DNA of 44,827 nucleotides from the NCBI GenBank assembly GCA_944391315.1, contig CALXTD010000013.1, positions 1-44,827 on the forward strand, in the 5' to 3' direction. The translations under genes and the position numbers were made by a program. Position 1 is the stretch's first letter. Each line of letters begins with the position of its first letter. Under the pieces are notes generated by a model that worked only from the letters and a program-made list of their open reading frames with translations, ran no database searches and was not told where the DNA came from. Positions 28,237-34,859 of this stretch are shown here, in pieces. This stretch comes from an uncultured Alphaproteobacteria bacterium. GTDB lineage: Bacteria > Pseudomonadota > Alphaproteobacteria > RF32 > CAG-239.

Positions 28237-30012
28237 ATGAAAAAACTTGTCCTTTTGCTTATTGTCTTACTTGTCGGCTTGTGCTCTTTAGCCGAAGCTG
28301 CAGAGCTTAAAGCCACGCTTAATAAAAATCAGATTATACAAGGCGAGGCCGTAACCCTTACTTTGAGTTATGATGGCGCTCAAACCAATGAACAGCCGGA
28401 TTTTGCGCCGCTGGATAAAGATTTTAACATTTTTTCGGTCAGCAACGCCTATCAGCATAACTATATTAACGGAAAAATCTCGCAAATGCGTGAGTGGAAA
28501 GTTCAGCTTATGCCGAAATCATCCGGCAAGGTGACTATTCCGGCTTTGGCGCTCGGTTCACTCAAAAGTCAGCCTCTAAGCTTGGATGTTTTGGCCGCCA
28601 GCCCCGAAAATATCAAAAAACAAAATGAGCAAAATGCTCAAGCTGCTAATGCCCCGCGCTATGCGGTTGAAGCCGAGATTGATAACAAAAATCCCTTTGT
28701 GCAGCAAGAAGTTAATCTAACACTTAAGATTTATGATACCGGCGGTTTGCAAATTGATAGAATTGTGCCTTTAGTTAATGACGAAAACAACTGGGTAATT
28801 CAGTCTTTGGGCGAGCCAGAGCTCGAAACGGTCAAAATCGGGGGCCAAGATGTTCGCGTCATTAATATAAAAATGGCTCTTTTTCCGCAAAAAAGCGGAG
28901 AGCTGGATGTGCCCGAGATTGCGGTTGAAGGATATTATTTATCTCAAGGCGGCGATCCAATGCAAAAAATTTTTGAAAGTTTCGGTGCTTTCAAAATCAG
29001 CGCGCTCGATCCTGACTTAGCAGACATTTTTGCCACAAAAAATGTTGTTTCTTTGCGAACGGATCCTATGAAAATTTCGGTTAAACCTATTCCGGCAGCG
29101 GCACAAGGCGGCTGGTGGGTTCCGGCTGAAAGCTTAGAGCTCTATTCTGAATGGAAGCCTAATCCGCCGAAATTTAAGGTCGGAGAAGCCGTTACCCGCA
29201 ATATATATATAAAAGCCGTCGGCGTTATGGATGCCCAACTGCCAAACATCAAATTCATCGACAGTGGTTCACTTAAGCAATATCCTGAAAAGCCGCTCAG
29301 CGAGGTTAAAGTCGAAAACGGCAAAATCGTGTCTTATCGCCTGATTTCAAATGTTTATATTCCGTCAAAAAGCGGCAATGTAACCATTCCGGAAGTCAGT
29401 GTCAAATGGTTTAATATCAAGACCCAACAAGTCGAAACGGCGTCTTTGCCGGAGATGACGATTTCAGTTGCCGCAGACCCCAGTGCTATCCCACAGGAAG
29501 AAGAAATTGTTGAACAACCGAGAATTCCTGCTCCAACAACCGCGGCTGTTAATGATACTCCGGCTAAAAACGCCCCGGTTGCTAACGATCAGCCGGATTG
29601 GCGTGTTGCGGCATTAACCGCCTTTGGCGCCGGTTTGTTCCTCGGGGTTTTGATTTTTGCCTTTTTCCGTGCGAAGAAAACCTATCAGCAAAGCGGCGAA
29701 AGTTTGAAAAACTTTGATAAAGCCGTCATCAAATATGCCAAGGAAAAAGACCTTAAAAACCTTCGTGATAGCCTCATTGTTTGGGCTAAAGAAACTTATC
29801 AAAATCCGGCAATTTCAAACCTCAACGACATTGCCGCCTATAGTCATGATGCAGCATTTAAGGTCGAACTTGATAAGCTGTCTTCTTGCTTGTATGGCAA
29901 AGAAACCTTGATTTGGGATAACGGCGGGTTCTTGGCGGCTTTTGAAAAAATTCGCAAGACAAAGCCTCATTCCCACCAAGAGGAAAAACCTCTTCCCGAG
30001 CTGTATAAATAA
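28237..30012 (+). CDS. batD: BatD-like periplasmic/membrane protein
   Basis: 591 residues. The signal peptide (about residues 1-20, ending LAEA) is followed by beta-sandwich domains typical of BatD: 'ATLNKNQIIQGEAVTLTLSY', 'DFNIFSVSNAYQHNYINGKI', 'REWKVQLMPKSSGKVTIPAL', and repeated 'KSGNVTIPEVSVKWFN'-type units. A transmembrane helix near residues 452-474 ('AALTAFGAGLFLGVLIFAFF') leads to a C-terminal cytoplasmic helical domain. It is the last gene of the DUF4381-batA-batBC-batD operon. It starts 3 bp after the batBC stop, with GGAG overlapping that stop, and is followed by a strong terminator. Confidence 0.9.
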   Translation: MKKLVLLLIVLLVGLCSLAEAAELKATLNKNQIIQGEAVTLTLSYDGAQTNEQPDFAPLDKDFNIFSVSNAYQHNYINGKISQMREWKVQLMPKSSGKVTIPALALGSLKSQPLSLDVLAASPENIKKQNEQNAQAANAPRYAVEAEIDNKNPFVQQEVNLTLKIYDTGGLQIDRIVPLVNDENNWVIQSLGEPELETVKIGGQDVRVINIKMALFPQKSGELDVPEIAVEGYYLSQGGDPMQKIFESFGAFKISALDPDLADIFATKNVVSLRTDPMKISVKPIPAAAQGGWWVPAESLELYSEWKPNPPKFKVGEAVTRNIYIKAVGVMDAQLPNIKFIDSGSLKQYPEKPLSEVKVENGKIVSYRLISNVYIPSKSGNVTIPEVSVKWFNIKTQQVETASLPEMTISVAADPSAIPQEEEIVEQPRIPAPTTAAVNDTPAKNAPVANDQPDWRVAALTAFGAGLFLGVLIFAFFRAKKTYQQSGESLKNFDKAVIKYAKEKDLKNLRDSLIVWAKETYQNPAISNLNDIAAYSHDAAFKVELDKLSSCLYGKETLIWDNGGFLAAFEKIRKTKPHSHQEEKPLPELYK

Positions 30013-30018
30013 TAAAAA

Positions 30019-30044
30019 AGCCGCGGTCACCCCGCGGCTGTTTT
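30019..30044 (+). terminator. Intrinsic terminator of the bat operon
   Basis: AGCCGCGG (30019-30026) pairs perfectly with CCGCGGCT (30032-30039) across a 5-base loop, then GTTTT follows. It lies 7 bp after the batD stop. Confidence 0.85.
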
Positions 30045-30115: not shown

Positions 30116-30144
30116 TTGACTCACAAAAATTGTTGTATTAAACT
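30116..30144 (+). promoter_or_regulatory. Probable promoter of the ileS leader
   Basis: TTGACT (30116-30121) and TAAACT (30139-30144) are 17 bp apart; TATTAA at 30136-30141 is an alternative -10 with a short spacer. Transcription would start near 30151, giving an untranslated leader of about 150 nt before ileS, much longer than for other genes in the window. Confidence 0.5.
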
Positions 30145-30171
30145 ACTCCCAGTTTTTAAGGAAGACCAAAT

Positions 30172-30219
30172 ATGATGCAAGATTTTTACATATCTCAAAT
30201 TTTCATTATTATCCCTTAG
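30172..30219 (+). CDS. Candidate isoleucine-rich leader peptide of ileS
   Basis: A 15-codon reading frame, MMQDFYISQIFIIIP, then TAG. It contains five isoleucine codons (ATA, ATT, ATT, ATT, ATC), three of them in a row just before the Pro and the stop. A strong ribosome binding site, AAGGAAG (30158-30164), sits 7 bp before the ATG at 30172; a second ATG follows at 30175. It lies in the long leader upstream of ileS, so its codons sense the very tRNA that IleRS charges. This is the logic of ribosome-mediated attenuation. Expression of the peptide is inferred, not shown. Confidence 0.6.
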   Translation: MMQDFYISQIFIIIP

Positions 30220-30272
30220 GGGATAGATTTTCTTGCATATATAATATAAATTTTTCACGACAGTTTTTTTTT
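30175..30272 (+). promoter_or_regulatory. Possible attenuator region between leader peptide and ileS
   Basis: Two pairings are visible. TATCCC (30210-30215) pairs with GGGATA (30220-30225), with the leader stop codon in its loop, and is followed by GATTTTCTTG. ATGCAAGA at the leader start (30175-30182) pairs perfectly with TCTTGCAT (30231-30238). A run of nine T's lies further on at 30264-30272, but no convincing GC-rich hairpin stands directly before it. A ribosome pausing at the Ile codons would affect these pairings, but which fold is 'on' or 'off' cannot be decided by eye. Confidence 0.4.
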
Positions 30273-30304
30273 ATTTAATCAATAAGTTATAGGATGTTTT
30301 ATAG

Positions 30305-33578: not shown

Positions 33579-34859
33579 ATGGCTGATATAAAAGATTATG
33601 AAGACCAAATCAAAGAAATCGCTAAAGACAAAAAGTGGTCAGATGAAAGATTGAAAAAAGAGCTTGCAAAGCTTCAAAGAATGCCAGAGGATAAAAGAGA
33701 CGGCTATATCGAAAAATTAAAAAAAGAAGATTCTGATAAAGAAAATCAAAATGGAGATAAACAAAAAGATAAAAATAAATCAGCCGCAGCCGATAATGGC
33801 AATCAGGGAGAAAACAAGCCCAAGGACAATAATCAGGTTGTGATTGATGAGCCTGTGGCCGAAGGTGAAGAAAACAAAAAAGAAGTGAACGTCAGCGAAA
33901 ATAGCGACGACAAACCTCAGCCAAACGCAGAAAATACAAACCAAGACTGGAAAGCTTTGCGCCGTGAAGAATGGAAAAAGTTTGCGGAGAAAAAAGGCAA
34001 AGAGTTTGCCGAAACCACAGAAGCCCAAGCACCTGACTTAGGCCTAAAGGTTGGCGCTGATAATATTCATTACCAAGACAGTTCTAACGTTAATATGAGC
34101 AATGGAGAATATGATCAGTTCTTGACCCTTGTTCAGATTGAAAAAAAGGATAAAACCGAAGTTATAAATTTTGGTGATATAAAGAGCGATGACTATAAAG
34201 CCAAACTAGCCGCTGCCTGCGTTCAAGAGGATATGAAGTTCAAAAAAGGCCCGCGTTATATTGATTTGAACATGGAATGTTTTAAGAATTTGGACGATGC
34301 AACCAAGGCCAAGATTAATGACTTTAATGAAAAGAACAAAATCGAAGATAAGTATAAAGCCAAGGTTGAGGAATTAAAAAAACTCAAAGAGAGCAAGGGA
34401 GAACTTGATTTCGCTCAGATTAAAGATCCGACAGAAAGATTAATTGCCTATACGGCAGCCAAAGAAACCGGCGTAAAAATAAACAACCTTGCCAATGATG
34501 AGTTGATATATGATGAGCAGAAAAATCCTGAAAAGAAGCAAGAGATTGAAAGAGCGCGCAAGGTTATAGACGGCGTAAGAGATAAAACCGCAGTTAAGGA
34601 AGATGCCTTTGATATGCATGAAAGAAGAGTAAAATCTTTGCAAAAAATGCACCAAGAAGTCAAAGACGGCACCCGCCATCGTGGTGAATTTACCAAAGAC
34701 GGAAAAAAACAGGAAGCAAGCTTAAGACAAACCATAAACGGCACAACTTACCATGTTGATCGCAAAGATGTTAAAACCGAGGTCGTTGACGGCAAAGAAA
34801 AGTATGTTAAGAACAACTTAGGGAAATACGTTTTGAAAGAGCGCAACAACAGCAGATAA
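33579..34859 (+). CDS. Large highly charged cytoplasmic protein, unknown function
   Basis: 426 residues, very rich in Lys, Glu, Asp and Asn, without signal peptide or membrane span. Residues ~1-50 form a helical region ('DYEDQIKEIAKDKKWSDERL'). Residues ~50-125 are a low-complexity acidic/basic linker ('DKQKDKNKSAAADNGNQG'). The rest alternates charged helices with a few folded-looking parts ('YIDLNMECFKNLDDATKAK', 'DPTERLIAYTAAKETGVKIN'). No family is recognised. It has its own promoter and terminator. The next gene also codes a long, charged, unrecognised protein with a repeat region, and the two could be functionally linked, but nothing proves it. Confidence 0.75.
   Translation: MADIKDYEDQIKEIAKDKKWSDERLKKELAKLQRMPEDKRDGYIEKLKKEDSDKENQNGDKQKDKNKSAAADNGNQGENKPKDNNQVVIDEPVAEGEENKKEVNVSENSDDKPQPNAENTNQDWKALRREEWKKFAEKKGKEFAETTEAQAPDLGLKVGADNIHYQDSSNVNMSNGEYDQFLTLVQIEKKDKTEVINFGDIKSDDYKAKLAAACVQEDMKFKKGPRYIDLNMECFKNLDDATKAKINDFNEKNKIEDKYKAKVEELKKLKESKGELDFAQIKDPTERLIAYTAAKETGVKINNLANDELIYDEQKNPEKKQEIERARKVIDGVRDKTAVKEDAFDMHERRVKSLQKMHQEVKDGTRHRGEFTKDGKKQEASLRQTINGTTYHVDRKDVKTEVVDGKEKYVKNNLGKYVLKERNNSR

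Follow-up and report, generated by a model that had tools for sequence, protein, structure and literature searches.

Is the short, isoleucine-rich reading frame that lies upstream of ileS in an uncultured alphaproteobacterium (GTDB lineage RF32; CAG-239) the sensing part of a device that adjusts the synthetase gene to the supply of charged tRNA-Ile? The locus belongs to a stretch of 44,827 nucleotides (contig CALXTD010000013.1), hereafter the window, in which a first-pass annotation had described a 15-codon leader frame, two pairings that overlap it, and a possible autoregulation of ileS by Ile-tRNA supply. The coordinates given there for the frame and for both pairings all matched the sequence (Table 1). 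The leader reads M M Q D F Y I S Q I F I I I P and stops at TAG (30217-30219), and its five Ile codons are ATA (30190), ATT (30199), ATT (30205), ATT (30208) and ATC (30211). In the long-range stem P1, the core ATGCAAGA (30175-30182) pairs with TCTTGCAT (30231-30238), and the arms of the hairpin P2 are TATCCC (30210-30215) and GGGATA (30220-30225). The predicted fold of the window leader (-16.9 kcal/mol) contains both stems, with pairing probabilities of 0.96 for P2 and 0.99 for P1.

Table 1. Features of the ileS leader region in the window
Feature	Position	Strand	Basis or remark
Likely promoter of the ileS transcript: TTGACT 30116-30121, spacer 17, TAAACT 30139-30144	30116-30144	+	Inferred
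SD-like AAGGAAG of the leader frame	30158-30164	+	Sequence; 7 nt 5' of the leader ATG
P1 5' arm, covering the start codon and first codons of the leader	30171-30182	+	Own versus swapped pairing, z -9.7
Leader peptide MMQDFYISQIFIIIP-stop	30172-30219	+	ATG 30172, 15 codons; conserved frame and in-frame Ile enrichment
Inner Ile codon ATA (codon 7; position -10, stop = -1)	30190-30192	+	Ile there in 35/52 leaders
Terminal Ile codons ATT ATT ATC, running into P2	30205-30213	+	ATT at -4 in 51/52 and ATC at -3 in 52/52 distinct leaders
P2 hairpin TATCCC-TTAG-GGGATA, leader stop codon in loop	30210-30225	+	Matching lengths of the C run in the Pro codon and the G run after the stop
U-rich tract after P2, weak in the window (GATTTTCTT)	30226-30234	+	T enrichment in relatives
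P1 3' arm	30231-30242	+	Swap test and predicted fold
SD-like TAGGATG of ileS	30290-30296	+	Sequence; no covarying pairing to tested leader segments
ileS, isoleucine--tRNA ligase, 1034 aa	30305-33409	+	TIGR00392, 886 bits, over cut-off

In profile comparison, the next-best resemblance of the window ileS was to the mupirocin-resistant MupA/MupB kind. The genes on either side (28237-30012, 591 aa, and 33579-34859, 426 aa) had no NCBIfam match. By inspection, a strong terminator-like hairpin, GCCGCGG-TCACC-CCGCGGC followed by TGTTTTAT (about 30018-30043), stands at the end of the preceding gene, so ileS is probably on its own transcript. The TTGACT box lies 56 nt 5' of the leader ATG; among 52 relatives, 47 have a TTGAC shortly before the leader, usually at a distance of 57-70 nt from its ATG.

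Conservation of the leader frame and its two pairings

We located ileS in 11 genomes of the window's genus and 82 of its family and took the upstream DNA, which gave 81 usable loci. Persistence of the Ile-rich frame in relatives, on which the first-pass annotation had staked its proposal, was found at 72 of the 81 family loci, in 15 of 16 genera. The conserved frame has 13-18 codons, ends in IIP-stop or IIIP-stop (in one case IP), and stops about 70-120 nt 5' of ileS. Those relatives that bear names are MAGs, many of them recovered from animal guts, under the labels Alphaproteobacteria, Azospirillum sp. or Rhodospirillaceae. All nine leaderless family loci belong to a single genus, g4, and two further g4 genomes also lack the leader; since a second family of the order has it in one genome (L184, MKSTKTIISIISIIIP), the simplest reading of these sequences is loss in g4. 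The 5' region of the g4 ileS genes (L089-L097, L185, L186) is short and has a conserved upstream block of its own, GTTTAAAAATTCGGTTAAGATTC ... CTTGATTTTG.

In a count over 52 distinct leaders, 117 of the 435 inner codons in frame (27%) specify Ile, as against 57/383 (15%) and 35/383 (9%) in the other two frames of the same leaders and 12% expected from composition, these being counts from related sequences with no formal P-value. Ile occurs among codons 2-9 in 51 of the 52. Where position -10 is Ile, it is spelled ATA in 32 of 35 leaders, and ATA accounts for 66 of the 117 inner leader Ile codons compared with 21.6% of the Ile codons in the window's genes; the two codons before the Pro are ATT and ATC almost throughout (Table 1). 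The sensor part of the proposal, a leader built on Ile codons, is strongly supported by this comparative evidence.

Both pairings first noted in the window proved to be kept in relatives with compensatory changes. P1 joins the start region of the leader to the segment after P2; its position drifts over the SD, the AUG or the first codons, and the partners match in each genome, with a mean of -11.0 kcal/mol for a genome's own pairing against -8.1 when partners were swapped between genomes (z -9.7). What this comparison shows to be kept in P1 is a pairing that covers the ribosome-binding site and start of the leader itself. For P2, length was compensated in 95 of 98 distinct elements, an extra C in the Pro codon going with an extra G after the stop: a CCT codon is accompanied by 3 G (60/62) and a CCC codon by 4 or 5 G (35/36). 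No antiterminator emerged from the selected segment pairs that were put through swap tests, none of which covaried besides P1.

Downstream of P2, the G run is followed by A (50/52), T (52/52), four free positions and then T in 63-81% at +6 to +12, the enrichment in relatives spanning about +6 to +13. A run of at least 4 T within the first 15 nt after the G run is present in 39 of 52, compared with a mean of 12 and a maximum of 21 in shuffles. In many relatives the inner pairs of P1 close the gap, and the 3' side then runs without a break through P2, P1 and the U-tract (in L079, GGGGATGCATCTTTTT); the tract is weak in the window and in UGCACAU-type relatives. The earlier annotation had seen its weak point in the lack of a GC-rich terminator before a T9 run. 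The run is real (30264-30272), and we rejected it as a conserved terminator tail because it lies outside the conserved element, a shortened form being shared only with the 99%-identical neighbour L003; the U-rich tract that matters directly follows P2. A further GC-rich hairpin, sometimes with a few T after it, lies between P1 and ileS at L006-L009, L041, L051, L055 and L057; absent from other relatives, it was not counted as part of the element.

Translating ribosomes were represented in folding by a mask with an assumed footprint of -17 to +14 around the A-site codon. Placed at the window's inner ATA, the mask abolished P1 and left P2, and placed at the terminal Ile codons, the Pro codon or the stop, it abolished P2. 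An Ile pause at either cluster would thus break the full structure.

Related leaders before thrS and in other Alphaproteobacteria

In the window's genome, the pattern of P2 and U-tract has a single match, at ileS; matches to it at L219 and L223 in other genomes were unrelated. A covariance-model search of 398 genomes of the phylum, run with strict filters and a model blind to the GC-rich leaders described below, returned only the window's own element. Further genomes were searched with R1, a covariance model of the ileS leader. In a different family of the class, this search found MSDIRSISIIISIIIP-stop before ileS with P1, P2 and GCUUUUUAUU (G161, L199). It also gave one further convincing place, upstream of thrS in a genome of the second family of the order (G085:C114; L209, about 1500-1600). 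The frame there, MLILFKNYTTTTFTTTP-stop, is rich in Thr codons and ends TTTP, and the hairpin AACCCC-UUA-GGGGUU (AACCCCTTAGGGGTT) is supported by the predicted fold. Upstream of thrS in 11 other genomes (10 of the family and G161) no Thr leader was found, nor was a Val-rich leader found upstream of valS in congeners. This one case is informative, since the coded amino acid has changed with the gene and the hairpin and Pro-stop have been retained; read from its sequence, the thrS version is a natural codon swap, with one case so far.

The ileS upstream regions of 130 genomes of the class were surveyed, and at least 16 other, mostly GC-rich alphaproteobacterial genomes carried a cousin of the leader before ileS; most of the others had neither design. 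The cousin frame holds R-I-I-(G/N/T/V/D)-P, spelled CGA-AUU-AUY-NNC-CCG (one with AUC-AUC) and abutting a hairpin, and it ends in residues other than the invariant Ile-Pro-stop of the window's clade. The stop codon lies in or beside the hairpin loop in most of the 16 tabulated cousins (at L330, CCCGGCCCTC-TAGGC-GAGGGCCGGG). Own hairpin arms paired at -19.1 versus -16.0 for swapped ones (sd 0.55), better than all 200 shuffles, and most of these GC-rich cousins have no U-tract after the hairpin. AATTATC was found upstream of ileS in 19 genomes on the forward strand, some of the window's clade included, against one in the reverse-strand control. CGA is a rare Arg codon there: two ileS genes from the cousin group use it for 1 of 49 and 0 of 51 CGN codons. 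Cousin leader loci are L265, L266, L281, L302, L314, L319, L324, L326, L330, L354, L355, L357, L362, L365, L371, L375 and L376.

Judged by eye from their N-termini (for example FPMRGDLPKKEP), the cousin ileS genes look like the other kind of IleRS, and the stop-in-loop design would therefore precede both kinds. We regard as evenly balanced the case for an old, Alphaproteobacteria-wide family of stop-in-loop attenuators, standing before both the MupA/MupB-like ileS of the window and the other kind in GC-rich genomes, in which the 5' arm of the hairpin adjoins or overlaps codons for the cognate amino acid (AUU-AUC before ileS, Thr codons before thrS) and a paused ribosome alone would decide the fold; the near-fixed CGA-AUU-AUY may hint at an additional constraint of recognition or decoding.

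A candidate attenuator and competing readings

Ribosome-mediated attenuation, with charged tRNA-Ile as the signal sensed, is in our view the likely function of the ileS leader. A ribosome would work through the 15 codons as RNA polymerase transcribes the leader region. With ample Ile-tRNA it would reach the stop and leave, P2 would fold and P1 would close beneath it, and the two stems, together with the U-rich tract that most relatives carry on the 3' side, would act as a split terminator and leave little ileS mRNA. With scarce Ile-tRNA the ribosome would wait at the inner ATA, covering P1, or at the terminal AUU-AUC, covering P2; the full structure would be blocked, polymerase would read into ileS, and charging would be restored. 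Ribosome stalling at the leader Ile codons and the direction of control are what we infer from these sequences, and the autoregulation by Ile-tRNA supply proposed at the outset gains comparative support, the Thr-codon version before thrS included. A separate antiterminator would not be needed, the ribosome itself serving as one; that no separate, mutually exclusive one was found among the tested segment pairs counts against the attenuator, as does the fact that a ribosome at the stop would itself block P2, so that the outcome hinges on release timing.

As to the output step, we lean towards termination of transcription by the structure. The U-tract directly after P2 in most relatives argues against the same sensor having another output, a possible but less probable arrangement in which the leader ribosome and P1/P2 would act beyond the leader stop on Rho-dependent termination, on pausing of the polymerase or on decay of the mRNA, in the manner of TnaC- or mgtL-type leaders, rather than on intrinsic termination. 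The weakness of the tract in the window and in UGCACAU-type relatives weighs against the attenuator, and its absence after the hairpin in most GC-rich cousins both does so and favours the other output. The Pro-stop end of the leader, which resembles TnaC, also speaks for another output. Between P1 and the ileS SD, G is scarce and C commoner (7.4% against 15.7%), but this stretch is AT-rich overall, so that its low G is weak evidence for such an output.

The fixed ATT-ATC spelling goes beyond what Ile decoding alone requires and is a further point against the attenuator. Recognition at the RNA level without translation, in which IleRS or uncharged tRNA-Ile would bind AUUAUC beside the hairpin in a T-box-like or thrS-operator-like manner, could draw on the near-fixation of AUU-AUC in window-clade leaders and of CGA-AUU-AUY in the GC-rich cousins, and UUAUC could pair with a GAUAA anticodon loop. 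We hold it improbable, since the leader is an open frame that begins with a start codon and is enriched for Ile in frame at other places too, and since Thr codons precede thrS. Moreover, no Rfam family, T-box included, matched the window or 14 related loci at gathering score, and the ileS leader CDS of Caulobacter is reported to be translated (PMC4117421). Nor are we inclined to credit an arrest peptide, a nascent chain ending IIP that would stall at the stop on a ligand (free isoleucine), as TnaC does. The C-terminal Ile-Pro-stop is indeed invariant in the window's clade; against this, fixation there extends to the nucleotides and not to the residues alone, the remaining positions of the peptide vary freely apart from Ile, the GC-rich cousins end in other residues, and the Thr twin ends TTTP. 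Translational attenuation of the ermC kind, in which the leader structure would sequester the ileS ribosome-binding site until a stalled leader ribosome frees it, is permitted in principle by a leader followed by a gene but is very unlikely, as P1 and P2 sit 50-60 nt 5' of the ileS SD, and the sequestration was dropped after swap tests in which no tested leader segment preferred its own ileS SD region over a swapped one (z 0.2 to 4.0).

Comparison with known systems

To our knowledge, leader-peptide control has been described for few aminoacyl-tRNA synthetase genes (pheST, some trpS and leuS, and cysS by prediction), and the attenuator proposed here would add ileS across a whole order of gut-associated Alphaproteobacteria. 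In its compact design two Ile clusters would guard the two halves of one structure, which predicts codon, stem and direction, and the thrS twin suggests that the design can be re-aimed by codon change. Systems of this kind are known; for this gene, this clade and this compact design we found no earlier description: a literature search, thin on subscription journals, turned up no paper on an ileS attenuator in Alphaproteobacteria.

Ribosome profiling of Caulobacter crescentus yielded leader CDSs for ileS (CCNA_03934) and trpS (PMC4117421). Like the window's frame, CCNA_03934 is a translatable short CDS before ileS in an alphaproteobacterium, and in Caulobacter it is translated; the likeness is one of description only, as the text found says nothing of its sequence, structure, conservation or mechanism. 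In Rhodobacterales, ribosome-mediated attenuation has been predicted for the uORFC-8-2 motif, which precedes cysS and carries tandem Cys codons (PMC8632094). It resembles the window's element as a predicted synthetase attenuator in Alphaproteobacteria with tandem cognate codons in the first stem and a 3' U run, which is weak in the window. It differs in its Cys codons, its gene and its two prominent stems, whereas the window has one stop-in-loop hairpin with a long-range stem over the leader start, and belongs to another clade; the gene here is ileS, and the leader holds no Cys codons.

Attenuators of trpS and leuS in Streptomyces, and T-boxes of ileS, have been described in Actinobacteria (PMC1262725). 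T-box RNAs, known from Firmicutes and from actinobacterial ileS (PMC1262725), share with the proposed attenuator the control of ileS by tRNA-Ile charging, but they bind uncharged tRNA directly and have no translated leader, and the window gave no T-box match. The classical attenuators (enterobacterial trp, his, ilv, thr and pheST, and trpS and leuS of Streptomyces) share with it a short leader of cognate codons, hairpins that overlap the frame and, as most of the window's relatives have it, a terminator-like tail. In them a separate antiterminator competes with the terminator, whereas in the window's element, where none was found, the paused ribosome would itself disrupt the structure.
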